Assembly: GCA_947442255.1 (NCBI GenBank)
Contig: CANEVO010000066.1
Coordinates: 1 to 23,839, forward strand
Length of the DNA: 23,839 nt
Origin: Opitutia bacterium
Lineage (GTDB): Bacteria; Verrucomicrobiota; Verrucomicrobiae; Opitutales; Opitutaceae
Direction: 5' to 3'
A model generated the notes under the pieces. It ran no database searches. It was not told where the DNA came from and saw nothing but the letters and a program-made list of their open reading frames with translations. Below, one piece after another: positions 455-23,754 of the stretch (its first letter is position 1; every line of letters starts with the position of its first letter). The position numbers and the translations under genes were made by a program.

Positions 455-532
455 GCAGGGGTGCAGTCGCGCTGCGCCCCAACCGGAACCAAGTCCCTTC
501 ACGTCGCGAACGTCCACGACTGCGCCCCTACG
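455..532. repeat. Inverted pair of REP-like palindromes (class A, GGGCGCAG type)
   Basis: The left unit starts at 455 with GCAG, followed by a near-palindrome (GGGTGCAG, TCGCG, CTGCGCCC). The right unit (517-532) reads, on the minus strand, as CGTAGGGGCGCAGTCG. The two arms match at 13 of 15 positions in inverted orientation. A similar pair with a related linker (shared ACGTCGCG) lies at 17134-17206, so this is a dispersed element and not a local regulatory hairpin. It fills most of the gap before the phospholipase D gene. Confidence 0.65.
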
Positions 533-629
533 AATCGGGATGGCGGTTGGCCGCGAAGCCCGCGCGGATCGTTTCGTCTTTCACCGCTGACTTGTGGTCC
601 AACATCGGGAATCAGTCCTCCGCCCCGCA

Positions 630-1778
630 ATGTCCGCCCCGTTCTCTTCCAGCTCCGACCTGTCTCCATGCCACCGCTTCGAGTGGTTCGGGACGGGCCG
701 CCAGTTCCTGCGGTCCCAACTCGAAGCCATCGGGTCGGCGAAGCGTGAGATCCAGCTGGAGATGTATCTGTTCACCGACACGGCCGTCGGACGGGCCTTT
801 CGCGATGCGCTTGCCGCCGCGGTCGAGCGCGGCGTGACGGTCGCCCTGCTGGTGGACGGGGTGGGCTCGGCCCGGTTGCCCGACGATTTCTTCGGGCCGC
901 TCATCGCATTCGGCGGCGAGCAAAAATGGTTCAACCGCCCGCGGCCGGGGCGCTGGGCGCTGCGAAATCACCGCAAGGTGCTGCTCGTCGATCAGGCCCG
1001 GGCCTTCGTCGGCGGCTGCAATATCTCCGATGAGTACGATGGCGATGGCGTGGAGCAGGGGTGGCGTGACGGCGGGGTGGCCGTCGAGGGCCCCTTGGTG
1101 GCGGCGCTGACCCGCGAGTTCACCGCACAATGGCAGCGGGCCGGCCTGCCGCGCTGGCGGTTGATGCGCAGCGGATACGCCGAGGCCGTGGGTTCGCGCC
1201 TGGATCTGCAGGCGCTGTTCATCAGGCCGGGTTTCGGCGCCAGTCCGCTGCGGACCTCGCTCCGCGAGGATCTCGAGCAAGCCCAGAACGTGGCGATCAC
1301 CTCGGCATATTTTTTGCCCACCCACCGGCTGCGGGAGCAGATCGTCCAGGCCGATCAACGCGGCGCGCGGGTCCGCCTCCTCCTCGCCGGCAAGTCCGAT
1401 GTCCGGCTGATGTCCCTCGCCACCCAGTCGCTCTACCGCGGGCTCGTCCAGAGCGGGGTCGAGGTGTTCGAGTACCAGCCGCAGATTCTCCACGCGAAGA
1501 CGATGGTGCTGGATGACATCGTTTACATCGGCTCGTCGAACCTCGATCCCCGCAGCCTGCGCATCAATTTCGAGATCATGCTGCGGATCAAGGATCCCAC
1601 GCTCGCGGCCGTGGCCCGGGCCCAGTTCGAGGCGGATCTCCTCCATAGTCGCGCGGTCCGGCTCGCGGACACCACCCGGTTCAGCTGGTGGTCGCGGGTG
1701 CAGCAGCGAGCCGCCTATTTTTTCCTGGCCAAGTTCGATCCCTGGATCGCCCGCGAGCAGTTGCGTCGGATGGAGTGA
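630..1778 (+). CDS. Phospholipase D-family protein, cardiolipin synthase-like (ClsA/ClsB type)
   Basis: The 382-residue protein has two HKD phosphatidyltransferase motifs. The first is H114, K116, D121 in NHRKVLLVD, followed by GGCNISDEY. The second is H288, K290, D295 in LHAKTMVLD, followed by GSSNLDPRS. In the family these two motifs form one active site that transfers a phosphatidyl group between phospholipid molecules to make cardiolipin at the inner membrane. There are no N-terminal transmembrane helices, unlike ClsA, so the layout is closer to ClsB or ClsC. ATG 630 was chosen because homology-like sequence (FEWFGTG) begins soon after it. A GTG at 594 would add 12 residues with no resemblance to the family. 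No clear ribosome binding site is visible. A different phospholipase D activity cannot be excluded. The YchJ-like gene follows 54 bases later on the same strand. Confidence 0.85.
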   Translation: MSAPFSSSSDLSPCHRFEWFGTGRQFLRSQLEAIGSAKREIQLEMYLFTDTAVGRAFRDALAAAVERGVTVALLVDGVGSARLPDDFFGPLIAFGGEQKWFNRPRPGRWALRNHRKVLLVDQARAFVGGCNISDEYDGDGVEQGWRDGGVAVEGPLVAALTREFTAQWQRAGLPRWRLMRSGYAEAVGSRLDLQALFIRPGFGASPLRTSLREDLEQAQNVAITSAYFLPTHRLREQIVQADQRGARVRLLLAGKSDVRLMSLATQSLYRGLVQSGVEVFEYQPQILHAKTMVLDDIVYIGSSNLDPRSLRINFEIMLRIKDPTLAAVARAQFEADLLHSRAVRLADTTRFSWWSRVQQRAAYFFLAKFDPWIAREQLRRME

Positions 1779-1832
1779 GCGGCGGCGGTGATTCCGCTCG
1801 CCTCGACCGCCGCGCCGGCTACCCCTCGCACC

Positions 1833-2351
1833 ATGGCCTCGACGCCCACCGCCCTCCCCAAGCCCCAGCCCGGCCAGCCATGTTCCTGCGGGAGCGGGCG
1901 CGCCTACGAAGCGTGTTGCGGTCCACTGCTCGCCGGCACACGCCGGCCCGACACCGCGGAGGAACTCATGCGCTCGCGCTTCACGGCGCATGTCGCCCGC
2001 GATTACGCCTACCTGCACCGGACCTACCAGCCGACCGCGAACCTGCCGTATCAGCCGGAGGCGAATCCGTGGACGCAGGACTGGACGCGCCTCGTCATTC
2101 ATGCCCATGAGCCCGGCGCGAATCCCGACACCGCCTACGTGGATTTTTCCGCTTACTTCGTCGATCAAGCCGGCGAGCACCTGCATCCCGAGAAGTCCGA
2201 GTTTAATCGGGTCGATGACCAGTGGCTTTACACCCGGACCATCCGGCAGGGTCCCGCGCCCGCGAAGGCCGCCGCCAAGGTCGGCCGTAACGACCCCTGC
2301 CCCTGCGGCAGTGGCAAGAAGTACAAGCACTGCTGTCTGGCGAAGGCCTAG
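1833..2351 (+). CDS. YchJ family protein with two SEC-C zinc-binding motifs
   Basis: The 172-residue protein has an N-terminal SEC-C motif (C17, C19, C28, C29 in CSCGSGRAYEACC), a central YchJ-type domain of the NTF2-like fold (about residues 35-140, with ELMRSRFTAHVARDYAYL), and a second SEC-C motif at the C-terminus (CPCGSGKKYKHCC, cysteines 156, 158, 167, 168). SEC-C is the zinc-binding tail also found on SecA. The molecular function of YchJ (UPF0225) is not established to my knowledge. ATG 1833 was preferred over an in-frame ATG at 1788 because the extra 15 residues are low-complexity (PLASTAAPATP). Length and motif order match the family. It may be co-transcribed with the upstream phospholipase D gene. 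Confidence 0.88.
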   Translation: MASTPTALPKPQPGQPCSCGSGRAYEACCGPLLAGTRRPDTAEELMRSRFTAHVARDYAYLHRTYQPTANLPYQPEANPWTQDWTRLVIHAHEPGANPDTAYVDFSAYFVDQAGEHLHPEKSEFNRVDDQWLYTRTIRQGPAPAKAAAKVGRNDPCPCGSGKKYKHCCLAKA

Positions 2352-2413: not shown

Positions 2414-2427
2414 AATGAGGTCCGACT

Positions 2428-3610: not shown

Positions 3611-3636
3611 GTGGCACGGGTCTCCCGGCCCGTGCC
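3611..3636. repeat. Single REP-like palindrome, class B (GTGG + CACGGGTC stem)
   Basis: GTGG is followed by a stem CACGGGTC, loop TCCC and GGCCCGTG, with one T:G wobble. It is the half-unit of the paired elements at 6205-6274 and 7433-7508. The surrounding 360-base gap (3457-3816) contains no credible gene; besides this repeat it holds the class A palindrome at 3789-3815 and a methyltransferase-like peptide fragment. Confidence 0.7.
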
Positions 3637-3658: not shown

Positions 3659-3769
3659 GCTCGCCCGCGCCAGGGGACCCATGAATCGTCCCTTGCCGCA
3701 GCCGATGTCGCGCAGACCGCTTTCGAACTGTTGGCTCGCAAGGCCCCGAATCTCAGAGTGCCGGCACAC
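3659..3769 (-). other. Possible remnant of a SAM-dependent methyltransferase gene
   Basis: Read on the minus strand, 3683-3709 encodes DIGCGKGRF inside SGLRDIGCGKGRFMGPLARA. DIGCGKGRF is the glycine-rich SAM-binding motif I as found in TrmB-like and other class I methyltransferases. The flanking sequence does not extend the match: downstream it runs into a class B repeat, upstream there is no recognisable domain and no plausible start. It may be a leftover fragment of a deleted gene or chance. Confidence 0.2.
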
Positions 3770-3788
3770 GCCCTGCCCGGACGGAAGA

Positions 3789-3815
3789 CGGCCCGTCGAC
3801 GAGCGACGGCCCTAC
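3789..3815 (-). repeat. REP-like palindrome, class A variant, directly after the enolase-like stop codon
   Basis: On the minus strand, GTAG at 3812-3815 is followed by a stem GGGCCGTCG, loop CTCGT and CGACGGGCC (8 of 9 pairs). The enolase-like gene ends at 3817, so the palindrome begins within two bases of its stop codon. In other bacteria REP hairpins at this place can protect the mRNA 3' end or help terminate transcription. Here that is inference. A near-identical copy is at 19104-19126. Confidence 0.7.
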
Positions 3816-3816
3816 A

Positions 3817-5115
3817 TCAACTGCCCGATCCCGGATGAGTTCTTCCCGCCAGGATCCCCGCGCCCTCGAACCGCGCGCGGCTCCCGAGGTCCCGCTCGAT
3901 CCGCAGGATCTCGTTCCACTTCGCCATCCGCTCGCCGTGGGCAAACGATCCGACCTTCAACTGGCCGGCGTTCGTCGCCACGGCGAGATGAGCGATGAAC
4001 GCGTCCTCCGTCTCCCCGGAGCGTGCCGAAATCACCGGCCGCCAGCCGGCCGCCTGCGTCGCGCGAATCGCGCGGAGGGTCTCGGTCACGGTGCCGATCT
4101 GGTTCAGCTTGATCAGAACGGCATTCGCGACGTTCGCCGCGACCCCGCGCGCAATCCGCTCGAGGTTGGTCGTGAAGAGGTCGTCGCCGACCAACTGGCA
4201 CCGGCCGCCGATCGCGGCGCGCACGCGTTGCCACCCGTCCCAATCGTCCTCGGCCATCGGGTCCTCGATCGAGACGATCGGATAACGTTCGACCCAGCCG
4301 ATCATCAGCGCCGCGAACTCCGCCGACGTGAACTTCCGGCGTTCGAGTCCCAGCTCGTAACCGCCGTCGTGAAACAGATCCGTCGCAGCAATATCGAGCG
4401 CGATCCCGATGTCGCGGCCGGCAACGTAACCGGCGTCCGCGATGGCCTCGAGCAGCGTCGCAAACACCGCCTCGTTCGTGTCGAACATCGGCCAGTAGCC
4501 GCCCTCATCCGCGCCACCCGCGAGCCGGCCCTGTTTCTTCAACCGCCGTCCGGTGGCATGGAACACCGCATGCGTCATCTCGAGGGCCTCCGCGTACGTC
4601 TTCGCCCCGAGCGCGACGATCATGAAATCCTGCACGTCGATCCGGCCCGCGGCATGCCGGCCGCCGCCAATGATCTGAATCTGCGGGAGCGGCAGCAGCG
4701 CGCCCGCTCCGCCCCCGAGCCAGGCATGCAACGGCTGCCGCGCCGCAGCGGCCGCCGCCTGCGCGACCGCCATGGAGACTGCGAGCACCGCGTTGGCACC
4801 GAGCCGGGATTTGTTCGGCGTGCCATCGAGCGCGATCAGCGCCTCGTCGAGCCCGGCCTGATCCGCCGCGTCGCGACCGATGGCGGCCCGGGCGATCTCG
4901 CCCCGCACGTGCGCGATGGCGCGATCGACTGATTTCCCCAGCAACCGCCTGGGATCGCCATCCCGCAACTCCACCGCCTCGTGGCTGCCGGTCGAGGCGC
5001 CGGACGGCACCAGACCCCGGCCGCGCGTGCCATCGGCCAGGGTGACCACGGCCTCGATCGTCGGCTGGCCACGGGAATCATAGATCTGAAAGGCGTCGAC
5101 GCCGGCGATGGTCAT
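3817..5115 (-). CDS. Enolase (phosphopyruvate hydratase) homologue with altered active site
   Basis: The 432-residue protein covers the whole enolase family: N-terminal YDSRGQPT and PSGASTGSHEAVELRD, then the barrel. Family residues that are kept (yeast numbering in brackets): H154 (H159), E204 in DEGG (E211), D241 (D246), E284 in SIEDP (E295), D311 (D320), K336 in LIKLNQIG (K345), R365-S366 and K387 (K396). Two are changed: D163 in VQDFM stands where enolases have Glu (E168), and A364 in SARSGETED stands where they have His (H373). The metal ligands and catalytic lysine are intact, so it probably binds a 2-phospho-carboxylate, but normal glycolytic activity is doubtful. It is likely a paralogue. 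ATG 5115 overlaps the TGA of the upstream kinase gene by four bases (ATGA), implying translational coupling. Confidence 0.85.
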   Translation of the reverse strand: MTIAGVDAFQIYDSRGQPTIEAVVTLADGTRGRGLVPSGASTGSHEAVELRDGDPRRLLGKSVDRAIAHVRGEIARAAIGRDAADQAGLDEALIALDGTPNKSRLGANAVLAVSMAVAQAAAAAARQPLHAWLGGGAGALLPLPQIQIIGGGRHAAGRIDVQDFMIVALGAKTYAEALEMTHAVFHATGRRLKKQGRLAGGADEGGYWPMFDTNEAVFATLLEAIADAGYVAGRDIGIALDIAATDLFHDGGYELGLERRKFTSAEFAALMIGWVERYPIVSIEDPMAEDDWDGWQRVRAAIGGRCQLVGDDLFTTNLERIARGVAANVANAVLIKLNQIGTVTETLRAIRATQAAGWRPVISARSGETEDAFIAHLAVATNAGQLKVGSFAHGERMAKWNEILRIERDLGSRARFEGAGILAGRTHPGSGS

Positions 5116-6113
5116 GCGGAAGGAATCGCGGCTTTCCACTCCGCCGTAAAGCGCGCGAGCGTGGCGGGCGGAGCCGGAACCTGGGGGCTCAACGCCTGGG
5201 TCACGATCGCCTGGCGATCCGCGGCGAGATACTCGACCGGCGATTTCCCATGCACGCGGGCCAGCATCAACAGCAGCAGCAGCCGCACCGTGCGCGCCTC
5301 GAGCGCCGCGTCGGCCCGCGGGCCCAGCGCCGCGCGGTAGGCCATCCAGAATTCCGGTGCGAGCGCCAGCAGCGCGTCCGCCCGGTCGGGCCGGTGGAGC
5401 GCCTTCAGGTGCAGGTGCGTCAGTAGAAACGAGAGATCGAAGGCCGGATCGCCGAACCACGCGACCTCGGCATCAAGGACGACGAATCGACTCGGACCGA
5501 CCATCAAATTCTTCGGACTGAAGTCGCCATGCACGAGCGCCAGTTCAGTCGCGCCGAGCCGTTCCGCCTCGGCCACGAAATGGGATCGAAGCGCCGGCAA
5601 CCGCTCGCCCGCCGTCAGCAGATAGGGCGAGATCCGCAGCTCGTGAAAATTACGGCCGGTGGCGAAGGTGGTGCGCGCCACCGGATCGTCCCAAGTCGCG
5701 CGATGCACCGTGCCGAGAAACGTGCCCGCCGCGGAGGCGTGCGGTCCGTCGGCCCGGCCGGCCAGGAGTTCGCTCTTCCACAGGGTCAGGTCGCCCTCGA
5801 GGAACTCCATCGCGAACCAGTCCGTGTCCCGGTGCAGGAGCCGCGGGACCGCCGCCGGCCTCACGCGCCCGACCAGCGCAAACCAGTCCTGCTCCGCGCG
5901 ATTCCGGGCCGGATCCGCGAACCAGTCGTCCTTCACCTTAAGTTTCGGGAGCGCGCGTTTGACGACAAACGGCCGTCCCGCGGACGGGCGCACGAGCAGG
6001 ATGTCGCTCGAAACTCCGCCGCTCAGCGGACCGAACTCGGCCGTTTCGGTTTCTGCCAGCAGGCCCGCGGCGCGAAGTTGGGGCAGGAGATCGTGGTCCG
6101 GCGGGAGAGGCAT
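5112..6113 (-). CDS. Aminoglycoside/choline phosphotransferase-fold kinase
   Basis: The 333-residue protein matches the APH family (protein-kinase-like fold). Visible parts are a nucleotide-binding loop (LSGGVSSD, residues 30-36), K52 in VVKRAL with E74 as its likely partner, the catalytic loop H195-G-D197-F-S-P-K-N202, and the metal-binding segment LDAEVAWFGDPAFDL (D214). Members phosphorylate hydroxyl groups of small molecules such as aminoglycosides, choline, homoserine or methylthioribose. The substrate cannot be told from sequence. ATG 6113 was chosen; upstream in-frame ATGs exist but the extension runs into the repeat at 6205. Its TGA overlaps the start of the enolase-like gene, so the two proteins are probably made together and could act in sequence. 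Confidence 0.82.
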   Translation of the reverse strand: MPLPPDHDLLPQLRAAGLLAETETAEFGPLSGGVSSDILLVRPSAGRPFVVKRALPKLKVKDDWFADPARNRAEQDWFALVGRVRPAAVPRLLHRDTDWFAMEFLEGDLTLWKSELLAGRADGPHASAAGTFLGTVHRATWDDPVARTTFATGRNFHELRISPYLLTAGERLPALRSHFVAEAERLGATELALVHGDFSPKNLMVGPSRFVVLDAEVAWFGDPAFDLSFLLTHLHLKALHRPDRADALLALAPEFWMAYRAALGPRADAALEARTVRLLLLLMLARVHGKSPVEYLAADRQAIVTQALSPQVPAPPATLARFTAEWKAAIPSA

Positions 6114-6204
6114 CGAGAGCGAGCATCTAGAGTAAAGGCTGCGTCGGGGACGATCCGGAAATGGCAACATGCGGTGTCGGCTTCCGCCCCGCGCTGGTGG
6201 CCGC

Positions 6205-6274
6205 GTGGCATGGGTCTCCCGACCTGTGAGAACCGTTTCCGATCCGCGCTCATGGGTCGGGAGACCCATGCCAC
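6205..6274. repeat. Inverted pair of class B REP-like palindromes
   Basis: The arms 6205-6225 and 6254-6274 are reverse complements at 20 of 21 positions, with a 28-base linker. Each arm begins, read inward, with GTGG followed by CATGGGTC, loop TCCC. In the right arm the stem CATGGGTC/GACCCATG is perfect. It lies between the divergent kinase and amidohydrolase genes, so it sits near both promoters. The rest of the 6114-6378 gap shows nothing clear. Confidence 0.75.
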
Positions 6275-6378
6275 GATGCCCAACCGCCACGACACCGCCC
6301 TCCCGTTGACATCAAGCCCTCGCGAGGAACACCGTGAAACACCGGTCACGCGTGTCGCACCCGGCACCCCAATCCCTC

Positions 6379-7392: not shown

Positions 7393-7432
7393 AGGCATTC
7401 GTGGCCCGCGCGCGAGTGAAAACGCCAGCGCC

Positions 7433-7508
7433 GTGGCACGGGTCTCCCGACCCGTGAAAACCCGATCGAAGTCCGATTCGTTCTCATGGGTCCGGAGACC
7501 CATGCTAC
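7433..7508. repeat. Inverted pair of class B REP-like palindromes overlapping a stop codon
   Basis: The left unit (7433-7456) is GTGG plus a perfect CACGGGTC/GACCCGTG stem with loop TCCC. The right unit, read on the minus strand from 7508, is GTAG plus CATGGGTC/GACCCATG with loop TCCG. The C/G pair in one stem is a T/A pair in the other. The TAG of the right-hand GTAG is the stop codon of the BNR-repeat gene. Confidence 0.75.
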
Positions 7509-8590
7509 TTCCGCATCGCCTTCGGATCCAACACCACATGCCGGATTCTCTCCCGGCGCCAGGTGTAGGTAATGTGAATCAAGCCGTCGCTCGTCTGGAT
7601 GACGGCGGGATAGGAATAACCATGCTGCGCGCCGTCGGTCTCGAGTACCACGACATCGGTCCAGTCGCGGCCATTATCCGAGATCGCCACCTGCAGGGGC
7701 GAACGCGGCCCGTTCTTCCCATCCGGCTGCCGGTGCGTCGGATTGTACACGAGCACATGCCGACCGTCTGCCAGGGTCACCGCATCGGTGCCCGAGTTCG
7801 GATTCGCCAGCTTCGTCGACTCGACGCGACTCCACGTCCGGCCTTGATCCGCGGACCAGCTCGTGACGAGCACGTCGTCCTTGCTGCGCGCGAGAATCTG
7901 CAGCCGGCCGTCGCGATGCTGTAGAAAACTCGGCTGGATCGCGTTGAACTCCTGCTGCGTGTGAATCGGACCGATGACTTCCCACGTCCGACCGAGATCG
8001 CGGGTGCGCTCGAAGTGAATCGTCCAGCCCGTGTCCGGGCTTTCGTTGCTCGTCGGGCACAGGATGGAACCGTCGGCGAGTTGGACCGGCTTGTTCTTGA
8101 TCGGGCCCAGCACGCCTTCGGGCAACCGGCGCGGCTCGGACCAGGTCCGTCCGTCGTCGGTCGAGGTCGTAAGCATGCCCCACCAGGTCTGCGGCGTCGG
8201 ACCAGCCTTGTAGAAAAGCAGCAACGGCCCCTCGCGGGGCTGAAACAGGACCGGATTCCAGGTGGGCTGCCGGACGACCGTGCCATCGACGCGCCGATGC
8301 TGGATGCCGTTGGCCACTTCAACCGGCGCGCTCCAGCGCCCGCCCTCGTGGCGCGAGATCCAGATGCCAACGTCCGGGTGCTTCTCGTGCGTGCCGCCAA
8401 AGAACGCCGTCAGCAACGTGCCGGCCGACGACTCGACGAGGGTCGAGGCATGGCACTGCGGAAACGACGCGTGCTCGTAAATGAACTCACTCGTGCGCAC
8501 GACCGGCGACGTGGCCGCCATCAGACCGGACGCGAAGCCGGCCACCAGCAGGGCGGCGGGGAAGACCACCCATCGGGGAAGCAATTTCAT
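7505..8590 (-). CDS. Secreted BNR/Asp-box repeat protein (sialidase fold)
   Basis: The 361-residue protein starts with a Sec signal peptide (hydrophobic residues 8-24, then MAAT). The rest is a six-bladed propeller of the BNR_2 type with four Asp-boxes: STDDGRTW (143-150), TRDLGRTW (196-203), SADQGRTW (246-253) and SDNGRDW (304-310). This fold occurs in sialidases and other exo-glycosidases or lyases. The sialidase arginine triad is not obvious to me, so the substrate should be left open. Early residues (HASTLVESSAGTLLTAFFGG) are typical of the Planctomycetes/Verrucomicrobia branch. ATG 8590 was chosen; an ATG at 8602 adds four residues. The stop codon is supplied by a repeat element, so the original C-terminus may have been replaced. 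Confidence 0.82.
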   Translation of the reverse strand: MKLLPRWVVFPAALLVAGFASGLMAATSPVVRTSEFIYEHASFPQCHASTLVESSAGTLLTAFFGGTHEKHPDVGIWISRHEGGRWSAPVEVANGIQHRRVDGTVVRQPTWNPVLFQPREGPLLLFYKAGPTPQTWWGMLTTSTDDGRTWSEPRRLPEGVLGPIKNKPVQLADGSILCPTSNESPDTGWTIHFERTRDLGRTWEVIGPIHTQQEFNAIQPSFLQHRDGRLQILARSKDDVLVTSWSADQGRTWSRVESTKLANPNSGTDAVTLADGRHVLVYNPTHRQPDGKNGPRSPLQVAISDNGRDWTDVVVLETDGAQHGYSYPAVIQTSDGLIHITYTWRRERIRHVVLDPKAMRK

Positions 8591-8650
8591 CTGCGATCGC
8601 ATAAGCGATGCGGCGCGCAGGAAGAAGCCAGAAACCGCGGACTCCGAGAT

Positions 8651-8786
8651 GTAGCTGCGAGCGTGAGCGAGTGGCCCGAAACGTCCTAGATTGATTCCTG
8701 GCTTCGTGGCTTCGGGCTCAATCTGCTCCGGTGGCCGTCGCTCGCTTCGCCGCGTTTGAATCAATCCGGCTCACGCTCGCAGCCAC
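8651..8786. repeat. Composite repeat, class D inverted arms around a shared module
   Basis: GTAG at 8651 is followed by GCTGCGAGCGTGAGC from 8654; the reverse complement is at 8769-8783, where the element ends as GTGG on the minus strand. Between the arms lies a module (8684-8733) containing TCCTAGATT and a 21-base stretch that recurs at 23734-23754 with one mismatch. The element occupies half of the gap between the divergent BNR gene and the unknown secreted gene. I see no clear promoter in the remainder. Confidence 0.65.
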
Positions 8787-8852
8787 CGCAGAGCATCCGT
8801 TTTCGTCCTTTGTCCGTCCTGCTTCTTTCTTAAGCTGCGCTTCACCCCGATC

Positions 8853-9590
8853 ATGCTTCCCCGCGTGCGAATCTCCTTCCTCCCCCCGTTGTCCCGCATG
8901 CTGGCGGTGCTCGTCCTCGGGGCGCTTCAACCCGCGGGCGGAGCCGAAAGCGATGAGACCGCGGAGCCGCTCCAGACGATCCGCGTCGACGATCGCATCA
9001 TCCTCACCGTCGGTACCAGCAACCTCGGGCTGGTCGAGGCCATCGTCCTGAGTCCGATCGCCGTGAAGAAGGAAGCCGTGAAGCCGGGCCACACCAGCCT
9101 CGCCCATGTATTGATTTCGCCGCTGTGGATCAAGGAGGGCGATTCCGAGCGGCCAGCCTTCATCGTCGTCCGACCCTATATCAACGTGTCTCATGGCCGC
9201 GTCCGGCGCTTCGCCCTGATGCGGCCGGACGGCGAGACCATCAACCGGCCGGAACAGATGACGCCGGACTGTCGCTGGGTCCTCACCCTCGAGTTCAGTC
9301 ACGCGCTGCCGCAGCGGTTCACGGTGAACGTCACCATGGGCCAGCCCACCGGCATCGAGGCGAACGCGGAACTCCTCTACACGCCGAGCAATGACGGGCA
9401 GCCCCTGCGTTCCGGTCCGCCCGAGACGTTCCACACCGTGATACGCGTGAAGGCCGAACCCTCGCTCGATCCCTGGGAAATCCGGCAGGGTGACCAGGTC
9501 CTGCCGCGCGCCGATTCGTCATCCGTTAACCTCGAGCGCAATGTCGCGCATCGGATCCGCTTCGGGGTGGGCCAGCCGGCGCCGAATTGA
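8853..9590 (+). CDS. Predicted secreted protein of unknown function
   Basis: The 245-residue protein has an N-terminal signal peptide (hydrophobic stretch MLAVLVLGALQPAGGA) and an all-beta-looking mature part with alternating hydrophobic strands such as IRVDDRIILTVG and RFTVNVTMG. I do not recognise the family. There are no cysteines that would suggest haem binding or lipidation near the N-terminus. ATG 8853 or ATG 8898 could start it; either leaves a signal peptide. It precedes the DUF1549/1553 gene on the same strand, but a 214-base gap with a repeat pair separates them, so it is probably its own unit. Confidence 0.6.
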   Translation: MLPRVRISFLPPLSRMLAVLVLGALQPAGGAESDETAEPLQTIRVDDRIILTVGTSNLGLVEAIVLSPIAVKKEAVKPGHTSLAHVLISPLWIKEGDSERPAFIVVRPYINVSHGRVRRFALMRPDGETINRPEQMTPDCRWVLTLEFSHALPQRFTVNVTMGQPTGIEANAELLYTPSNDGQPLRSGPPETFHTVIRVKAEPSLDPWEIRQGDQVLPRADSSSVNLERNVAHRIRFGVGQPAPN

Positions 9591-9623: not shown

Positions 9624-9722
9624 GGGTTGGTAGTTCCGCCTTCAGGCGGAAGCCAAACGCACACGAGCCCCATGAGCACTTGTTCTCCCGGCCCTTCCGC
9701 CTGAAGGCGGAACTACCAACCC
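9624..9722. repeat. Perfect inverted pair of class C REP-like palindromes
   Basis: Arms 9624-9652 and 9694-9722 are 29-base perfect reverse complements around a 41-base linker. Each arm has GTAG directly before a palindrome with stem TTCCGCC, loop TTCA. A diverged half-copy is at 21545-21572. The perfect identity suggests recent insertion or gene-conversion-like maintenance. The rest of 9591-9804 shows nothing clear. Confidence 0.85.
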
Positions 9723-15368: not shown

Positions 15369-15394
15369 GCCGTCCGCCACCTCTCGGTTTTACG

Positions 15395-15429
15395 AACTTC
15401 CCGGGCTCGCTGCCCGGGAAGTTTTTTTT
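15395..15429 (+). terminator. Intrinsic (rho-independent) terminator of the beta-propeller gene
   Basis: AACTTCCCGGGC (15395-15406) pairs perfectly with GCCCGGGAAGTT (15412-15423) around loop TCGCT, and a run of eight T lies at 15422-15429. It starts 26 bases after the beta-propeller gene's stop codon. It is the only textbook intrinsic terminator in the window. The remaining gap up to 15570 shows no gene. Confidence 0.93.
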
Positions 15430-15570
15430 GGCCCAGGCGTGGCGCGGGTCGCCATCCCGAACCTGGCCTCGGCGGAGCTCGGCCCTCCAGAGAACCTGAT
15501 TGGCCTCCCACCTCCTCTTCCGCCTTCCGTCCGGCATCGTCCTCGGACTTACTTGTGGCACCCTTCCCCG

Positions 15571-17118
15571 ATGCGCCCGCTCCTCCTGCTCTCCGCCTTG
15601 CTCGCCCCGCTGGCCCTTTCAGCCGCCGTCGTTCCCGTCCCGACCGAGATCGTGCCGCAGCGCATCCCCGGGGCGAAGCCGCGCAATGTCGTCTTCATCC
15701 TCACCGACGATCATCGCTACGACGCCATGAGCTTCATGGGGCACCCGTTCGCGCAAACCCCGCAGATGGATGCGATGGCGAAAAACGGCGTTCACCTGCG
15801 GAACGCCCTCGTCACCACCGCGCTCTGCTCCCCCAGCCGCGCGTCGATCCTCACCGGGCTCTACACCTTTCGTCACCGCGTCATCGATAACAACCGCGCC
15901 ATCCCCGCCGGCACGGTTTACTTTCCGCAGTATCTGCGTGCCGCCGGCTACGCCACGGCCTTCATCGGCAAGTGGCACATGGGCGGCGAATCCGACGCTC
16001 CGCAGCCGGGCTTCGATCACTGGGTGAGCTTCCGCGGCCAGGGCAACTACCTCCCCCCAACCCCCGACTACACGCTCAACGTGGACGGTCAGCGCGTGCC
16101 CCAGAGGGGCTACATCACCGACGAGCTCACCGACTATGCGATCGACTGGCTCAAGCAGCAGAAGCCGGCCGAGAAACCGTTCTTCCTCTATCTCTCGCAC
16201 AAGGCGGTCCACGCGAACTTCACCCCGGCACCACGCCACGAGGGCCGGGCCGCGAACCTTTCCTACCAGCGCCCCGCGACCGCGGCGCCGACCACCGATG
16301 GCTACGTGCCGCGCTGGGTGCGCGACCAGCGCAACAGCTGGCACGGGATCGACTTTCCCTATCACAGCGCCCTCGACATCGAGCAATACTACAAGCGCTA
16401 CTGCGAAACGCTCGGGGCCGTCGACGACGGCATCGGCCGCGTGATGGATCAGTTGAAGGCGATGGGCATCTATGACGACACCCTCGTGCTCTACATGGGC
16501 GACAATGGATTCATGTTCGGCGAGCACGGCCTGATCGACAAACGCGTCGCCTACGAAACCTCCATCCGCGTCCCGATGCTGATGCAGTGCCCGCAGCTCT
16601 TCCGCGGCGGCACCGTCGTCGATCAGGTCGTGGCCAACATCGATGTCGCCCCGACCGTCATGGAGGCCATGGGACTCGCCCGACCGCCGCACTTCGACGG
16701 CCAGAGCTTCCTGCCACTGGCCCAGGGGAAGACGATCCCCTGGCGCGACAGCTTTCTCTACGTCTACTACTGGGAGAAGAATTTCCCCCAGTCGCCCACC
16801 GTCTTCGCGCTGCGCGGCGAGCAGTACAAATACATCACGTATTACGGACTCTGGGACACCGATGAGCTTTACGACCTGAAGAACGATCCCGCCGAATCGA
16901 AGAACCTCCTCCACGATCCAAAGTTCCGGCCGATGGCGCGCGCGATGGAAACGAAGCTCTACGCGATGATGGACGAACTCGGCGGCATGGACATCCCGCT
17001 GAATCCGCCCGCCGGCAACTCGCAGAACCTGCGCCTGCGTTCCCGCGGCGGCGAAAACGCGGCCGACTTTCCCGCTCCGTTCGTCACCGACCAGCCGGTG
17101 AATTCGAACGCGAACTAG
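15571..17118 (+). CDS. Secreted type I (formylglycine) sulfatase
   Basis: The 515-residue protein has a Sec signal peptide (MRPLLLLSALLAPLALSAA). Sulfatase features: N-terminal metal ligands D46-D47 in FILTDDHRYD, the formylglycine signature C86-S-P-S-R90 followed by ASILTG, K134 and H136 in FIGKWHMGG, and the second metal site in YMGDNGFMFGEHG. Cys86 must be oxidised to formylglycine by a maturase (FGE or anSME) encoded elsewhere. The C-terminus (ELYDLKNDPAESKNLL) is typical of the PF00884 sulfatases that remove sulfate from polysaccharides. The substrate subfamily cannot be set by eye. ATG 15571 was chosen as the start giving the signal peptide. The gene appears to stand alone. Confidence 0.93.
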   Translation: MRPLLLLSALLAPLALSAAVVPVPTEIVPQRIPGAKPRNVVFILTDDHRYDAMSFMGHPFAQTPQMDAMAKNGVHLRNALVTTALCSPSRASILTGLYTFRHRVIDNNRAIPAGTVYFPQYLRAAGYATAFIGKWHMGGESDAPQPGFDHWVSFRGQGNYLPPTPDYTLNVDGQRVPQRGYITDELTDYAIDWLKQQKPAEKPFFLYLSHKAVHANFTPAPRHEGRAANLSYQRPATAAPTTDGYVPRWVRDQRNSWHGIDFPYHSALDIEQYYKRYCETLGAVDDGIGRVMDQLKAMGIYDDTLVLYMGDNGFMFGEHGLIDKRVAYETSIRVPMLMQCPQLFRGGTVVDQVVANIDVAPTVMEAMGLARPPHFDGQSFLPLAQGKTIPWRDSFLYVYYWEKNFPQSPTVFALRGEQYKYITYYGLWDTDELYDLKNDPAESKNLLHDPKFRPMARAMETKLYAMMDELGGMDIPLNPPAGNSQNLRLRSRGGENAADFPAPFVTDQPVNSNAN

Positions 17119-17133
17119 GCGGTTGGAGTTGAA

Positions 17134-17274
17134 GTGCAGGGGCGCAGTCTTGCGGCGCCTTTCCTCCGGTTCGGAACGTCGCGGGCGCGCACGAGGCGCG
17201 CCCCTACCCGCGTTTCGTAGGGGCGTGGCTCGTCCACGCCCGAATGGCTTTTGTAGGCCAGCGAGCTTGCTCGC
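17134..17274. repeat. Cluster of class A REP-like palindromes
   Basis: Four units lie in the 316-base gap before the sulfurtransferase gene. They are a GCAG-led degenerate unit at 17136-17160; GGGCGCGC/GCGCGCCC at 17183-17203 with GTAG on its minus-strand 5' side; GTAG plus GGGCGTGG/CCACGCCC at 17218-17241; and GTAG plus a GCGAGC/GCTCGC palindrome at 17253-17274. The second and third have the loop CTCGT (in opposite orientations). Nothing else was recognised in 17119-17434. Confidence 0.75.
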
Positions 17275-17434
17275 GCACGACTCTCTCCCGCTCGCGGCCA
17301 CCGACGGCGGAATCAAAACGCCCGCCGCCCGGCATACCGTCACTTCTTCGATCGAGTCTTCTGGGCGTTGGCGAGCTCAAGCTCCTCCGCGGAATTTCGC
17401 TTTTATCGAGGATGGGCGTTCGTAGCGTGGGCCC

Positions 17435-18271
17435 ATGCTGATCGCCGCGGCCGAGTTGCTCACTCACCTTCACGATCCCGCCTGGATGGTCTTCGACTGC
17501 CGGCATGACCTGACAGACTACGCTCGCGGGGCGCGCCTCTACGCGGAGGGCCATGTGCCCGGGGCGTTCTTTGCCCCAGTCGAGACGGCCCTCGCCGGCC
17601 CGAAGAACGGCCGGAACGGCCGTCATCCGCTCCCCTCGGCCGAGGACTTCGCCGCCTTTCTCAACCGCCACGGCGTCACCCCCGACACGCAGATTGTCGC
17701 CTATGACGATGTCGGCGGCCAGTACGCGGCCCGGCTCTGGTGGCTCGCCCGCTGGATTGGGCTCACCCGGGTCGGCGTGCTCGACGGCGGCCTGCCGAAA
17801 TGGATCGCCGCGGGAAATCCGGTGACCTCCGACGTGCCGCTGCTGCGCGGCCCGGGATCCGTCGTCGCGCGGCCCGATGCCGCACAGTGGATCGACACGG
17901 CGGGAGTCCTGCAGGGAATCAACGTCTCATCCTGCCTGGTGCTCGACGCTCGCACGCCGGAGCGCTTTCGCGGTGACGTCGAACCGATCGATCCGGTCGC
18001 CGGCCGGATCCCCTCCGCGCAGAATCGCTTCTTCAAGACCAACCTGAACCCCGACCTCACGTTGCGCCCGACCGCGGAACTGCGCCGCGAATTCGAGACC
18101 ATCCTCAGCGGGCGTCCGCCGGGACAGGTGATTCACCAGTGCGGCTCAGGTGTGACCGCGTGCATGAACCTCCTGGTGATGGAGCACGCCGGCCTCACGG
18201 GATCCCGGCTCTATGTCGGATCCTGGAGCGAATGGATTTCCGATCCCACGCGACCCATCGCGCGCGGTTAG
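17435..18271 (+). CDS. Two-domain sulfurtransferase (rhodanese / 3-mercaptopyruvate type)
   Basis: The 278-residue protein consists of two rhodanese domains. The N-terminal domain (about 5-130) includes FDCRHDLTDYARGARLYAEG and GHVPGAFF and has no active cysteine loop. The C-terminal domain (about 145-275) carries C236 in HQCGSGVTA. CGSGVTA is the active-site loop of 3-mercaptopyruvate sulfurtransferases such as E. coli SseA, while thiosulfate sulfurtransferases more often have CRKGVT; assigning the donor still needs an assay. Length matches the family. ATG 17435 lies in a small palindrome (GCGTGGG directly followed by CCCATGC, with GTAG at 17422-17425), which may affect translation. The gene is bracketed by inverted copies of a class A repeat. 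Confidence 0.88.
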   Translation: MLIAAAELLTHLHDPAWMVFDCRHDLTDYARGARLYAEGHVPGAFFAPVETALAGPKNGRNGRHPLPSAEDFAAFLNRHGVTPDTQIVAYDDVGGQYAARLWWLARWIGLTRVGVLDGGLPKWIAAGNPVTSDVPLLRGPGSVVARPDAAQWIDTAGVLQGINVSSCLVLDARTPERFRGDVEPIDPVAGRIPSAQNRFFKTNLNPDLTLRPTAELRREFETILSGRPPGQVIHQCGSGVTACMNLLVMEHAGLTGSRLYVGSWSEWISDPTRPIARG

Positions 18272-18296
18272 GGAATCAAGAAAGACATTAGCCAGC

Positions 18297-18422
18297 CGGG
18301 CGTGGACGAGCCACGCCCCTACACGGACTTGGGAGCGCTACGTCCGCATTTCGTTACGCCCGGATTCCGTTACGCCCGCTTTTCGTAACCCATTTCGTAG
18401 GGGCGTGCCTCGTGCACGCCCG
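18297..18422. repeat. Class A REP-like palindromes after the sulfurtransferase gene
   Basis: The first unit (18297-18322) is the exact reverse complement of the one at 17218-17242. The second (18397-18421) is GTAG plus GGGCGTGC/GCACGCCC with loop CTCGT. Between them are degenerate tandem pieces (TTTCGTTACGCCCG, ATTCCGTTACGCCCG, TTTTCGTAACCC). The segment 18465-18505 is A/C-rich with repeated AAAATCGAAAATCGAGA. The gap contains no gene. Confidence 0.75.
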
Positions 18423-18510
18423 GAACGGAGTGAGAGTGCCTCCACTAGCGGGCACCCGTGGCTACGGGTTGGGAAAATCGAAAATCGAGACTCCCAAATC
18501 CAAAATCTCT

Positions 18511-18945
18511 TTAGGCCTTCTTCTTGGCGCGCTTGAACTGCTTGTGCCCGTCTTCCTGCCCCTGCTTGAGCGTCTTCAGGAGCTCGGCGGCTTCGGCGTT
18601 CTTGTCGGCCTTGAGCGCGGCTTCGACCTTGTTCACCTGCTCGACGAAGTGCTTCATGCCTTCCTGGTAGGCGGCGACAAATTTTTCCTGCTCGGCCGCC
18701 GGCACGTCCGCCTTGCGCTTCGGATCGAATTTAACGGCCTCGAGGGAGCGCTCGCGCAGCGTGGCAATCGTCGCGAGGGAATCGGCATTCTTCGCCGGAT
18801 TGGAAATCTGGCGGGTCAGCTTCCGATAGGCGGTGTTCATCTGCTCCATCGTGTCGTCGAGTTCGGACGGCGAGCTGTCGGCGGCCTGCGTGAACAAGGG
18901 CGCGACACAACAAAGGAGGGTGGCCAGGAGGGTGCGGAATTTCAT
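18511..18945 (-). CDS. Cytochrome b562-type periplasmic protein
   Basis: The 144-residue protein has a signal peptide ending FTQA-A at about residue 21, leaving a mature domain of some 123 residues rich in Lys, Glu and Ala that reads as a four-helix bundle. The start of mature E. coli cytochrome b562 (LEDNMETLN) aligns with LDDTMEQMN here, and its C-terminal haem histidine region (NAYHQKYR) aligns with QEDGHKQFKRAKK. The two axial haem ligands would be M33 and H134, both present. There is no CxxCH, so haem would be non-covalent. Cytochrome b562 is a soluble electron carrier with no fixed partner known. The gene is alone, with repeats on both sides. The lysine-rich tail (KKKA) is longer than in E. 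coli. Confidence 0.75.
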   Translation of the reverse strand: MKFRTLLATLLCCVAPLFTQAADSSPSELDDTMEQMNTAYRKLTRQISNPAKNADSLATIATLRERSLEAVKFDPKRKADVPAAEQEKFVAAYQEGMKHFVEQVNKVEAALKADKNAEAAELLKTLKQGQEDGHKQFKRAKKKA

Positions 18946-19103
18946 GGGTTATCGAGCGGGAAATGTGGGCGGCTTGCTGCCGGATGCAAGAATTTGGGCC
19001 ATTCCCACCCACTTCCCGTTCCGCCTGCCGGCAAAGTTCCCAATTTCCCCAGCGCGCGCCGCAATGTTTCCGGGTCCAAGCTGGAATCGTGCCGTTGACT
19101 GTG

Positions 19104-19126
19104 GGGCCGTCGCTCGTCGACGGCCC
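19104..19126 (+). repeat. REP-like palindrome, class A variant
   Basis: GTGG at 19101 leads a perfect stem GGGCCGTCG/CGACGGCCC with loop CTCGT. It is nearly identical to the unit at 3789-3815. It lies in the 421-base gap 18946-19366, where I see no credible gene. Confidence 0.7.
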
Positions 19127-19274
19127 GTTTTACCTCGTGCAATTGGGGCCTGCCGACGAGCGCCAGCCCAACCCTGCTCGGTTTCAGTCCCCCCCTTTGA
19201 AACACTTCCGACTGCCCACTACCGAATGGCAGCCGACGTCCAAAAGAGGCGCCTTCCCTGCCCGCGGTGCAGTT

Positions 19275-19339
19275 GTAGCCACGAGCGCCCGCGAATGGAT
19301 GCACCGCCCGTCGTTCCACTCGCCCACGCTCGTGGCTGC
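19275..19339. repeat. Inverted pair of class D-like repeats
   Basis: GTAGCCACGAGCG at 19275-19287 is matched in inverted orientation by 19327-19339 (12 of 13). The right unit, read on the minus strand, continues CCACGAGCGTGGGCGAGTGG, which shares 17 of 20 positions with the class D arm at 8655. It ends about 28 bases before the stop codon of the Cu-ATPase gene. Confidence 0.6.
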
Positions 19340-19366
19340 GGAAAACCGGCCTTTCTAGACCGCCTC

Positions 19367-21469
19367 TCAGAGCCGCACGTGCCGCAGCCGCAGCGCATTG
19401 CTGATCACCGTGATCGAGCTCAGGCTCATCGCGACCCCCGCGAGCATCGGGTTGAGCAACCATCCGGTAAACGGATACAGCGCCCCGGCCGCGACCGGGA
19501 TGCCCGCGAAGTTATAGGCAAAGGCCCAGAACAGATTCTGTTTGATGTTCCGGAGCGTCGCCCGACTCAGCCGGACGGCCCGCGCCATCGCCGCGAGGTC
19601 GCCCTGCACGAGGACAATCCCGGCACTGTGCATCGCCACGTCCGTACCCGTGCCCATCGCAATGCCGACGTCCGCCGCCGCCAGCGCCGGCGCATCGTTC
19701 ATGCCGTCGCCGGCAAACACCACCGACTCGCCGCGGCCGCGATGCTCCCGCACCAGTTCCTGCTTTCGCGCCGGGGTCACCGCCGCGTGATAGCCATCCA
19801 GCCCCAGTTCCTTCGCCACGGCACGGGCCGTTTCCTCGCAATCACCCGTGACCATCACCACGCGCAACCCGAGTTGCTGCAACTCGCGGACCGCGGCCGG
19901 CGTGGTCGGCTTGATCGTATCCGCAAGCGCCATCGTTCCCGCCGCGCGGCCATCGACCGTTACCGCCACCAAGGTCGCGGATTCCCCCTCGCCCGCCGCG
20001 GCCGCCGCCCGACCGATCACGACATCCTGCCCGCCCACCCGCGCCCGGATGCCCAGGCCCGGTTCGGCGGAAAATTCGGTTGCCGGAAGGCGCGCCAGGC
20101 CGCGCTCGTCCGCCGCCGCGACGATCGCCCGGGCCAGCGGGTGCTCGCTCGGCGACTCGGCCGCCGCCGCCAGCGCCAACAATGCGTCCTCCGTGAAGCC
20201 CGCCGCCGGTGTAACCCGAATCACGCGCGGCTTCCCGGCGGTGAGTGTGCCCGTCTTGTCGATCAACAGGGTGTTGGCGTGAGCCAGCCGTTCCAGCGCC
20301 GCGGCATCCTTGATCAGGATCCCCGCCTGCGCACCGCGGCCAATTCCAGTGATCAGTGACACCGGCGTCGCGAGCCCCAGCGCGCACGGGCAGGCGATGA
20401 TCAACACGGCTACGGCATTAAGCAGCGCGTGCGGCAAGGCCGGCGCCGGCCCGACTAGCAGCCACGTCACGAACGTAATGACGGACACCGCGATCACGAA
20501 GGGGGTGAACCACGCCGAGACCCGATCCGCCAGCCGCGCGATCGGCGCCTCGCTGTTCTGCGCCTCCTCGACCAGCCGGACAATCTGCGCCAGCAGCGTT
20601 TCCTGGCCGACGCGATCCGCACTCACGATGACGGAGCCGGTCGTGTTCAGCGTCCCGGCACTGGCGCGATCGCCGGCGCGCTTGGCCACCGGCAGCGGTT
20701 CTCCGGTGAGCATGGATTCGTCGATCTCCGTCACGCCGTCCGTGAGCGGCCCGTCGACCGACACATGCTCGCCCGGTCGCACCCGCAGCCGGTCGCCGAC
20801 CCGCACGTCCGCGAGCGGGACGTCCGTTTCCCGTCCGTCGGCCTCGACGCGATGCGCCAGCTTGGGCGCGAGATCCATCAACCCGCGAATGGCGGCCTCG
20901 GTCCGGGCATGGGCCCGCTGCTCCAGAATCTGGCCCAGCAGCACAATCGCGGTGATGAATGCCACGGCCTCGAAATACAGCGGCAGACCGTGGGCCGTGC
21001 GCAGGGCGGCGGGAAAACGATCGCCCCAGCCCACCGCCGCCACGCTGTAGGCATACGCGGCACCCGTGCCGGTGACGACGAGCGTGAACATGTTCGTATC
21101 CCGATCGCGGATGGAGATCCACCACCGCCGGTTCAGCGGCGCGCCCGCCCAGAAAAAGATCGGCGTCGTCAGCGCGAGCTGCAGCCAGCCGGGCAGCCGG
21201 GGGTCGAAGCGATGAAAGGCCGCCGGCGCGATCATCTCCCCCATCGCCAGCGCCACGACCGGCAATCCGAGGATCAACGCCACCCAAAAACGCGGCCGGA
21301 GAAAACGCTCGTGCGGCAGCCCCATGTACACCGGTTGGTCCGGCGCCGGCATCTCCGTCCCGGTCTTCGCCCCGTGACCATGCCCGCCGTGGCCGGACGA
21401 ATGGCTTCCGGGAACCTCCGGCCTCGCTGGGATGGACGGTGCGACGGGCCGGAAACGGGAGAGCTTCAT
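19367..21469 (-). CDS. Cu(I)-type P1B-ATPase with His-rich N-terminus
   Basis: The protein of about 700 residues has the full P-type ATPase core: TGEP (255-258) in the actuator domain, CPC in the membrane (C360-P-C362), phosphorylation site D404-KTGT, the SEHPLA nucleotide-binding histidine (about 443), and GDGMNDAP (587). Y651-N652 in the seventh membrane helix and M680-x-x-S683-S684 in the eighth are the Cu(I)/Ag(I) selectivity residues of subgroup P1B-1. Instead of a CxxC heavy-metal domain, the N-terminus has a short His/Gly-rich stretch ([11 protein letters not shown], 23-33), as in a known branch of bacterial copper ATPases. Role: ATP-driven export of Cu(I), for tolerance or oxidase assembly. 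ATG 21469 was chosen. No copper chaperone or regulator is adjacent. Confidence 0.93.
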
Positions 21470-21544
21470 AGCAGGGAAACGGAGCGGATCTCGGGATCCT
21501 TACAGACCGCCCAAGGAAACGCGAGTGACCAGAGATCTCAGCCC

Positions 21545-21572
21545 GGGTTCGTCGTTCCGCCATCAGGCGGAA
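21545..21572 (+). repeat. Diverged half-copy of class C repeat
   Basis: The segment matches the 9624 arm at all but about three positions, including the TTCCGCC/GGCGGAA stem with loop ATCA. It lies in the gap between the divergent Cu-ATPase and secreted-protein genes; nothing else was recognised in 21470-21668. Confidence 0.6.
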
Positions 21573-21668
21573 TAGAATACCGATGGAAATTCCCTCCGTT
21601 GCGAAATCAACGTGACCGCGCACTCCGCCTCGACCTAGGCTGCGGCTCACCCCTTCGGTTTTCTCCCC

Positions 21669-22268: not shown

Positions 22269-22327
22269 GGGGGACAGATCCGATAAAACTTTGACGCCGG
22301 TCACCCGGGTCCGTTTGCCTCTCCACC

Positions 22328-23239
22328 ATGACGTCCGCCGAGATCGCCGCCGCCCTCCCCAAGACCGCTGTCACCACGATCGACCACCTGCCCTTCCCGC
22401 GCATCGCCTCGGGCAAGGTCCGCGAAATTTTCGATCTGGGCGACGCCCTCCTCCTGACCGCCTCGGATCGGCTTTCCGCGTTCGACGTGATCCTGCCCGA
22501 CGGCATTCCCGGCAAAGGCGCAATCCTCACGCAGATCAGCAACTGGTGGTTCGCCCAGACTGAGTCGATCATCCAGCATCATCTCCTGCCCGATCAGGCC
22601 GGGGAATTTGCCCGGCGCGGGATCACCGACCGCGACCTCCAGCTGCGCAGCATGATCGTCCGCAAGCTGAAGACGGTGCCCATCGAGTGCGTGGTCCGCG
22701 GCTATCTCGTCGGCAGCGGCTGGAGTTCGTACCAGAAAACCGGTGACGTCTGCGGCATCAAGCTGCCGGTGGGGCTGCGCCAGGCCGATCGGCTGCCGGA
22801 ACCCATCTTCACCCCGACCACCAAGGCCCCGAAGGGCCAGCACGACGAGCCGATCAACGACGCCCAGGGCATCGCCACCGTCGGCGCCGAGCTCTACGAG
22901 CGGGTGAAGTCCACCAGCCTTGCGCTCTACCGGTTCGGCCACGATCGCGCCAAGCAGGCCGGCATGATCCTCGCCGACACAAAGTTCGAGTTCGGCACCG
23001 ACGCCGCCGGCAATCTCTTCCTCATCGACGAGGTCCTCACCCCGGACTCGTCGCGCTACTGGCCCGCGGAGAGCTACGCGCCCAACCAATCCCCGCCGAG
23101 CTACGACAAGCAGTTCGTTCGCGATCATCTGCTCGCCATCAAGTGGAACCAGCAGCCGCCAGCGCCCCGGCTCCCCGCGGACGTGATCGACCGCACCAAG
23201 GACAAGTACCTGGCCGCGCTGCGCAACCTGCTGGGTTGA
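22328..23239 (+). CDS. purC: Phosphoribosylaminoimidazole-succinocarboxamide synthase (SAICAR synthetase)
   Basis: The 303-residue protein matches the long form of PurC, which joins CAIR and aspartate with ATP hydrolysis in purine biosynthesis. Signature segments: SGKVREIFDLGDALLLTASDRLSAFDVILPDGIPGKG, PIECVVRGYLVGSGW, FTPTTKAPKGQHDEPI, LADTKFEFG and LIDEVLTPDSSRYWP. The length matches the roughly 300-residue bacterial/yeast form, not the 237-residue E. coli form. ATG 22328 was chosen. Its TGA overlaps a TTG at 23236 that could begin the cupin remnant. No purine riboswitch was seen in the short upstream gap. Confidence 0.96.
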   Translation: MTSAEIAAALPKTAVTTIDHLPFPRIASGKVREIFDLGDALLLTASDRLSAFDVILPDGIPGKGAILTQISNWWFAQTESIIQHHLLPDQAGEFARRGITDRDLQLRSMIVRKLKTVPIECVVRGYLVGSGWSSYQKTGDVCGIKLPVGLRQADRLPEPIFTPTTKAPKGQHDEPINDAQGIATVGAELYERVKSTSLALYRFGHDRAKQAGMILADTKFEFGTDAAGNLFLIDEVLTPDSSRYWPAESYAPNQSPPSYDKQFVRDHLLAIKWNQQPPAPRLPADVIDRTKDKYLAALRNLLG

Positions 23240-23630
23240 ATCGGCGCCAGCGTCCCGCACTTCCCGCGGCCGCGCGAGTGGCACGGGTCTATCGCTTTCC
23301 CCACTACCACGGCACTGCGCACGAGATTCTTGGCGTCTATCGCGGCCAGGCGACGATCCGCCTCGGTGCCGGGACGGGCGTCACGATCGTGGCGGGCCCC
23401 GGAGACGTAATCGTCCTGCCGGCTGGCACGGGCCACGAGAATCTCGGATCGAGTCCTGAATTTCATGTGGTCGGCGGCTACCCGGCCAGTCGCCCGACCT
23501 CCTCCGGGGCTCCGCCCGCGAACGCGCCGCCGCGATCGAGCGCATCGCGCACGTGCCCCTGCCTTCCGCCGATCCGCTGTATGGCGCAACCGGCCCGCTC
23601 ATGGGTCAATGGAAGATCGGTCCCGCGTAG
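23236..23630 (+). pseudogene. Truncated and frameshifted cupin (YjlB-like)
   Basis: The cupin core is plain: YRFPHYHGTAHEILGV, then GDVIVLPAGTGHENLG and EFHVVGGYPA. Intact relatives such as Bacillus YjlB have about 60 more residues before this core and continue YPxGxxxDLLRG to a C-terminal LPxxDPVYGxxGPL. Here the first part is missing, because the frame abuts purC. The last part (DLLRGSARERAAAIERIAH to SADPLYGATGPLMGQW, TAG 23628-23630) is in another frame. A single-base deletion near 23485-23487 would restore it (PAQSPDLLRG). Possible starts are TTG 23236, overlapping the purC stop, or GTG 23278. A sequencing indel could explain the frameshift but not the missing N-terminus. Confidence 0.75.
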
Positions 23631-23654
23631 CGCAACGGGTCCGTGCCCTCGATA

Positions 23655-23754
23655 GCTGCGAGCGTGAGCGGGTGGCCCGAGACCGGAACCAGCCACCCGC
23701 TCACGCTCGCAGCCACTGATGGTTTCCTAGATTCGGGCTCAAGCTGCTCCGGTG
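23655..23754. repeat. Class D inverted pair followed by shared module
   Basis: Arms 23655-23676 and 23692-23713 are 22-base perfect reverse complements around a 15-base linker. After them comes a module (23725-23754) with TCCTAGATT and a 21-base stretch shared with 8713-8733. It lies between the cupin remnant and the convergent S4-domain gene. Confidence 0.75.

Follow-up and report, generated by a model that had tools for sequence, protein, structure and literature searches.

The repetitive extragenic palindromic (REP) elements closest to those discussed here are the GTAG-tagged repeats of Opitutus terrae, in which several coexisting REP families, one of them mostly GTGG-tagged, were published in 2013; that study also states that species with several REP families have repeat-specific genes for REP-associated tyrosine transposases (RAYTs), the group to which TnpA-REP belongs (PMC3733652). 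In Pseudomonas and Stenotrophomonas there are many REP classes, each lying beside its RAYT, mostly as inverted doublets known as REPINs (PMC3686654). The E. coli pairing of TnpA-REP (structure 4er8) with REP is of the HUH/Y1 family, and the E. coli repeat has conserved mismatches within its stem (PMC8266576). Our subject is the set of hairpin repeats between the genes of the GC-rich stretch of DNA presented above, 23.8 kb (23,839 bases) in full and called here the window. These palindromes are very probably REP elements, many of them head-to-head REPINs, that fall into at least six classes and go with several distinct lineages of RAYT (TnpA-REP) in an Opitutaceae-like bacterium.

The window resembles the Opitutus terrae system in phylum, in having several families per genome, in its GTGG-rich family, and in its head-to-head dimers. 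Our classes may or may not coincide with the published families; relative to that report (PMC3733652), the turnover between near-identical genomes described below is new. The Pseudomonas and Stenotrophomonas elements share the multiplicity of classes, the neighboring RAYTs, and the inverted doublets but have other sequences and hosts, and their RAYTs were reported to be monophyletic per group (PMC3686654), whereas several clades correspond to one window here. One of our classes, B, shares the in-stem mismatches of E. coli REP (PMC8266576) but differs in having a G.A/A.G double mismatch and a 4-base loop, and in a RAYT (L210) that Pfam Y1_Tnp misses. The finding is a rich new example of a known bacterial repeat kind, not a new kind.

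Classes of tagged palindromes in the window

The sequence-only reading of this DNA had counted at least four sequence classes. That there are multiple classes held up, and sorting the window units by sequence raised the count to six, A to F. Class A has mostly a GTGG tag, an 8-bp stem, and a TCCN loop; class B, a GTRG tag and an interrupted stem; class C, a GTAG tag, a TTCCGCC stem, and a short loop; and classes D and E, related stems and a CTCGT loop. Class F consists of one window unit, at 17253. The window classes have the REP format of a 20- to 40-base palindrome with a short loop, and for classes A, C, D, and E the fold is a plain hairpin; that of F is weak, with bases left unpaired following the tag. 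The term palindrome thus suits most of the units, the exception being class B, an interrupted hairpin in which two short helices surround the double mismatch. Four outer pairs of this fold, which were not used in selection, are standard or G.T in 61 to 66 of 77 sampled units; the mismatch itself belonged to the selection pattern, and its conservation in those 77 units is circular.

All seven inverted pairs pointed out earlier are present. Those at 6205-6274 and 7433-7508 are of class A; those at 8651-8786, 19275-19339, and 23652-23716 are of class B; that at 9630-9716 is of class C; and that at 455-531 is a decayed pair of class D. The individual units are the following.

455..480, plus strand: class D-like REP, decayed, GCAG tag, found by reading; partner of 507-531
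507..531, minus strand: class D-like REP, decayed, GTAG tag, broken 3' arm, found by reading; partner of 455-480
3611..3634, plus strand: class A REP, single, 1 mismatch
3791..3815, minus strand: class E REP (GTAGGGCCGTCG...), 1 mismatch
6205..6228, plus strand: class A REP, left unit of a head-to-head pair (REPIN)
6251..6274, minus strand: class A REP, right unit, exact; pairs with 6205..6228
7433..7456, plus strand: class A REP, left unit of a head-to-head pair, exact; also in the related genome G001
7485..7508, minus strand: class A REP, right unit, GTAG tag, exact; pairs with 7433..7456
8651..8674, plus strand: class B REP, left unit, exact; in G001 the gap has a class A pair
8763..8786, minus strand: class B REP, right unit, 3' arm decayed (5 mismatches)
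9630..9651, plus strand: class C REP, left unit, exact; class A sequence here in G001
9695..9716, minus strand: class C REP, right unit, exact; retained in G001
17136..17160, plus strand: class D-like REP, GCAG tag
17183..17207, minus strand: class D REP, exact
17217..17241, plus strand: class D REP, exact
17253..17276, plus strand: class F REP, single; related units flank L032 and L035
18298..18322, minus strand: class D REP, exact
18397..18421, plus strand: class D REP, exact
19101..19125, plus strand: class E REP, GTGG tag, exact
19275..19298, plus strand: class B REP, left unit, exact
19316..19339, minus strand: class B REP, right unit, GCAG tag
21551..21572, plus strand: class C REP, single, decayed (2 mismatches)
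23652..23675, plus strand: class B REP, left unit, ATAG tag
23693..23716, minus strand: class B REP, right unit, 1 mismatch

By gene limits that we picked from the list of open reading frames (ORFs), 3,697 of the 23,839 bases (15.5%) are intergenic. The earlier statement that the repeats fill nearly every gap was worded a little strongly: some unit is present in 11 of the 14 gaps of at least 60 bases, counting gap 418-621, which holds the decayed class D pair alone, and units within 2 mismatches of a class pattern are present in 10. No unit was found by class pattern (at most 2 mismatches) in gaps 2352-2427, 13733-14228, and 15369-15569, the second of which contains an 8-base tandem array and the third, by eye, an A-like remnant. 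In the second gap, a stretch of about 300 bases (13733-14034) has 9 copies of the 8-base unit TGTCTCCG within a 30-base inverted repeat.

A scan made independently of the classes, for hairpins that have one of the tags GTAG, GTGG, and GCAG precisely at the foot, found 10 in the window, against a mean of 0.54 and a maximum of 3 in 100 dinucleotide shuffles, none of which reached 10. All 10 are intergenic. The tagged palindromes that had been noticed by inspection are thus well above expectation. Some units are decayed, as at 23652, where the tag reads ATAG.

Two further repeats lie beside classified units. At 18339-18379, a 16-base tandem repeat of 2.6 copies is flanked by two class D units, and a 25-base unit recurs at 8709-8733 and 23730-23754, each time beside a class B pair. 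In about 179 kb of G001 the latter was seen at the matching site L367 alone, and we set aside the idea that a 35-base unit at 8709 and 23730 is part of class B.

Copy number and pair geometry

Genome-wide counts were made in G001, which is the nearest genome searched and distinct from the window's own assembly; 74% of sampled 31-letter words are common to both. G001 is a 580-contig draft, 94% complete, and reversed patterns served as controls. Class A has 347 copies there (at most 2 mismatches; control, 0), class B 243 (control, 1), class C 66 (control, 0), and classes D and E together 206 (at most 1 mismatch; control, 0), so that the genome-wide count proposed by the sequence-only reading gave hundreds of copies against controls of 0 to 1. 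High copy number was assessed genome-wide for classes A to E, and intergenic position was assessed in the window alone. Among 57 genomes, class A occurs in 8, class B in 23, and class C in 10. Class C is most abundant in G011 (369 copies), and class A is also abundant in G005 (146 copies). In named genomes class B was found in at least 120 stretches, and the 80 listed comprise 78 from Verrucomicrobiota, 1 from Planctomycetota, and 1 from Aeromicrobium by title. These titles suggest a position for the window within Opitutaceae or close to it.

The 100 class A copies listed, out of 347 in G001, are all exact to the pattern and without exception paired at the variable outer stem position (58 C:G and 42 T:A), where the pattern also permitted mixed pairs, so the two arms co-vary; a local sample of 94 copies with at most 2 mismatches gave 49 C:G, 44 T:A, and 1 unpaired. 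Neighboring units among the same 100 listed copies are head to head in 26 cases, tail to tail in none, and in tandem in 1, and the head-to-head spacings are 45 to 47 or 52 to 56 bases. Class A therefore shows the inverted head-to-head arrangement at set spacing that defines REPINs. Around the class B RAYTs introduced below, other arrangements of units occur too, tail to tail included.

Foot tags were also tallied outside the window. A 125-kb sample of G001, its contigs chosen by number, contained 37 hairpins; of their 74 feet, 9 had GTGG and 4 had GTAG (mean, 0.29 per 4-mer). A larger sample of 405 kb, about two-thirds of it from contigs picked for repeats or RAYTs, had 372 feet, with GTGG found 63 times and GTAG 46 times (mean, 1.45 per 4-mer). 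At loci from the named-genome scan for class B, GGAG stood at 12 of 460 feet (mean, 1.8 per 4-mer). Palindromes with a GGAG foot were seen at L083, L071, L082, L055, L117, L154, and L115, as well as at L220, L226, and other loci of that scan, and several of them adjoin RAYT genes. A literature search for a GGAG tag with a RAYT returned no REP paper among the matches listed.

RAYT genes and their repeats

As far as it was read, the window contains no RAYT gene, as had been said before. In G001, Pfam Y1_Tnp detects 5 genes and NF047646, the model for REP-associated tyrosine transposases, detects 6. Three of the G001 genes are short RAYTs with palindromes on either side, of class D at L004, of class E at L002, and of class G at L326. 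This last class (GTAGCCCTGCGCGTGAGCGCAGGG and variants), which the window scans do not show, occurs at L326 and at L333 of G005 with a RAYT of its own. The class A RAYT is L123 of G005, in the same genus, which has a 114-base repeat, itself a class A pair, on both sides. Class B RAYTs of the same genus, L328 (G011), L330 (G004), and L332 (G026), lie among class B units, as does L210 in a genome titled uncultured Opitutae, and the class C RAYT, L327 of G011 in the same genus, lies between class C pairs. The proposed link between these repeats and RAYTs, and the suggested search for RAYT genes flanked by the same palindromes, are thus supported for classes A to E: for D and E in G001 itself, and for A to C elsewhere in the genus. 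Relatives of class F, with 2 to 4 mismatches, adjoin L032 and L035. An earlier view of ours, from Pfam Y1_Tnp alone, that B and C are orphan classes was overturned when NF047646 detected their RAYTs.

The best solved match of both L004 (8e-9) and L123 (1e-7) is E. coli TnpA-REP, 4er8, and the 80-bit curated cut-off of NF047646 is passed by L002 (82), L004 (87.5), and a few relatives. In the RAYT alignment, the proteins of classes A to E all have both the HUH and the catalytic-tyrosine motif columns, the tyrosine taken as catalytic being the counterpart of that in E. coli TnpA-REP. When left and right flanks were compared, 61 of 70 RAYT loci had a repeat common to both (E of 0.01 or better), in a set where two genes were entered twice and several of the 9 misses were cut by a contig end.

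In a tree of 86 proteins, the RAYTs of A, of B with G, and of C stand in separate places, the class G RAYTs being next to those of class B, while those of D, E, and the F-like loci share one larger clade. Several RAYT lineages thus stand behind the classes of the window. The sequence-only reading had placed several RAYT lineages in one genome; separate clades were found, and coexistence in one genome was seen for the repeats alone. Neither GTGG nor GGAG forms a single clade, and their common ancestors span 82 of the 86 leaves, on tags that we assigned from the flanks, with L053 and L120 readable as either GTGG or GGAG. No simple code linking tag to residue in the WQ...R motif was seen by eye across the 86 aligned proteins. 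A substrate altered from GTAG to GTGG is reported to be cut at CC (PMC8266576). We therefore looked, in 13 to 90 copies per class, for a conserved CC next to class A units and for CT or CA next to units of the classes tagged GTAG, but the flanks of the units are only weakly conserved, the best being class C, with GTT just before the tag's neighboring base at 92 to 99%.

G001 also has longer Y1 transposases, L001, L003, and L005, whose ends by eye are GGGGTCA- or GGGACAGG-like and which resemble, and are related to, the TIRYTs described in PMC3733652. It is extremely improbable that such TIRYT-like enzymes with terminal repeats, rather than REP-type RAYTs, move the window units. Three genes of the kind are present, but their ends are not those of classes A to F, no window-class REPs lie beside them, the flank comparison gives no repeat for any of the three, and classes A to E do have short RAYTs that they bracket.

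Repeat turnover between close relatives

Window positions 7418-21660 align with one G001 contig at 96.5% identity over 13,874 bases, and positions 3709-6296 align with another at 98.2% over 2,588 bases. Nine gaps of 60 bases or more fall within the first contig. A class B pair at 8651 in the window is matched in G001 by a class A pair; where the window has a class C pair, at 9630, G001 has class A sequence together with the right class C unit; the 8-base repeat array of 13740-14034 corresponds in G001 to a pair of GTAGCGCC units; and near 15443 a remnant in the window corresponds to an intact class A unit. The remaining five gaps retain their units save for point changes. Because repeat content differs in 4 of 9 gaps of DNA that is 96.5% identical, the elements turn over fast, to judge from these alignments. 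The hairpin repeats are probably mobile.

These differences bear on a different reading, in which the hairpins serve as ordinary intrinsic terminators, or as RNA signals of some other sort, that selection maintains at gene ends and that do not move. The intergenic position of all 10 class-free hairpins would suit such signals, as would the pair at 7433-7508, which lies between converging genes, where terminators are expected. We regard the reading as very improbable in view of the hundreds of near-identical copies, the fixed tag on one foot, the fixed pair spacing, the RAYT genes bracketed by the same class, the presence of different classes in the same gap of a close relative, and the finding of no Rfam match in the window. 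The hairpins may have a secondary role as terminators.

Missing enzymes and a proposed mechanism

Several observations weigh against the assignment of these repeats to REP elements with RAYTs of their own. Searches of G001 with Pfam Y1_Tnp and NF047646 gave no RAYT for A, B, or C, even though no class is more abundant there than A and B. With NF047646, the scores fall under the 80-bit cut-off, though with small E-values, for the RAYTs of class A (75 bits), class C (74), class B (41 to 52), and class G (37). The class B RAYT L210 has no Pfam match and no solved relative at E up to 1. At L032 and L035, the sole RAYT loci related to class F, the matched frames each contain a stop codon. Finally, the differences between the window and G001 are replaced stretches, not clean insertions. 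On the other side, RAYT genes, genome-wide enrichment, and GTRG flanks, whose absence the sequence-only reading had named as refuting its proposal, were all found as far as G001 and the genus allow the test.

The simplest cause of the missing A and B RAYTs in G001, despite high copy number, is a gap in the draft assembly. A possible but doubtful special case of the REP and RAYT reading is that A, B, and perhaps C are orphan relics that have lost their RAYT and no longer spread, with just D, E, and G retaining an enzyme. It agrees with the lack of A, B, and C RAYTs in G001 and with the decayed look of class C there (16 of 66 exact, versus 369 copies in G011, which has the class C RAYT). A draft of 580 contigs and 94% completeness may, however, miss the genes, and class A is uniform in G001 and occupies three gaps where the window differs, a sign that the change may be recent, loss in the window being equally possible. 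It is unlikely, though conceivable, that the cell has no cognate RAYT for A and B, that these two classes are spread by the RAYTs of other classes, and that units of different classes take one another's place at the same intergenic sites, so that the gaps form a shared landing ground for competing RAYT lineages.

Under the reading that we prefer, of REP elements each served by its own RAYT, an element turned single-stranded would fold into a hairpin, and the cognate HUH/Y1 RAYT would read this hairpin together with its GTRG foot, nick beside it, and move the pair as a nonautonomous element. The position of each RAYT gene among copies of its own class would mark the pairing of enzyme and repeat. 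Movement by single-strand cutting is taken from other TnpA-REP proteins (PMC8266576).

Gene context

Eight of the 10 window reading frames scanned have a Pfam match, including PLD-like, aldo/keto reductase, enolase, amidohydrolase, and E1-E2 ATPase, and a PSCyt/PSD1 protein adjoins a DUF1501 protein. Positions 1-417 look coding by eye, yet no complete plus-strand ORF of 100 amino acids is listed there; perhaps the gene is broken, its frame is cut off, or the sequence contains an error.

Implications

The REP literature consulted here is mostly proteobacterial, and in this case one genus of Verrucomicrobiota has many RAYT lineages, each with its own hairpin. The natural tag variants GTAG, GTGG, and GGAG make up a ready set with which to ask what residues of the enzyme recognize each hairpin and its tag, and the change of class at matching gaps in genomes that are 96.5% alike is a direct measure of the rate of REPIN turnover.

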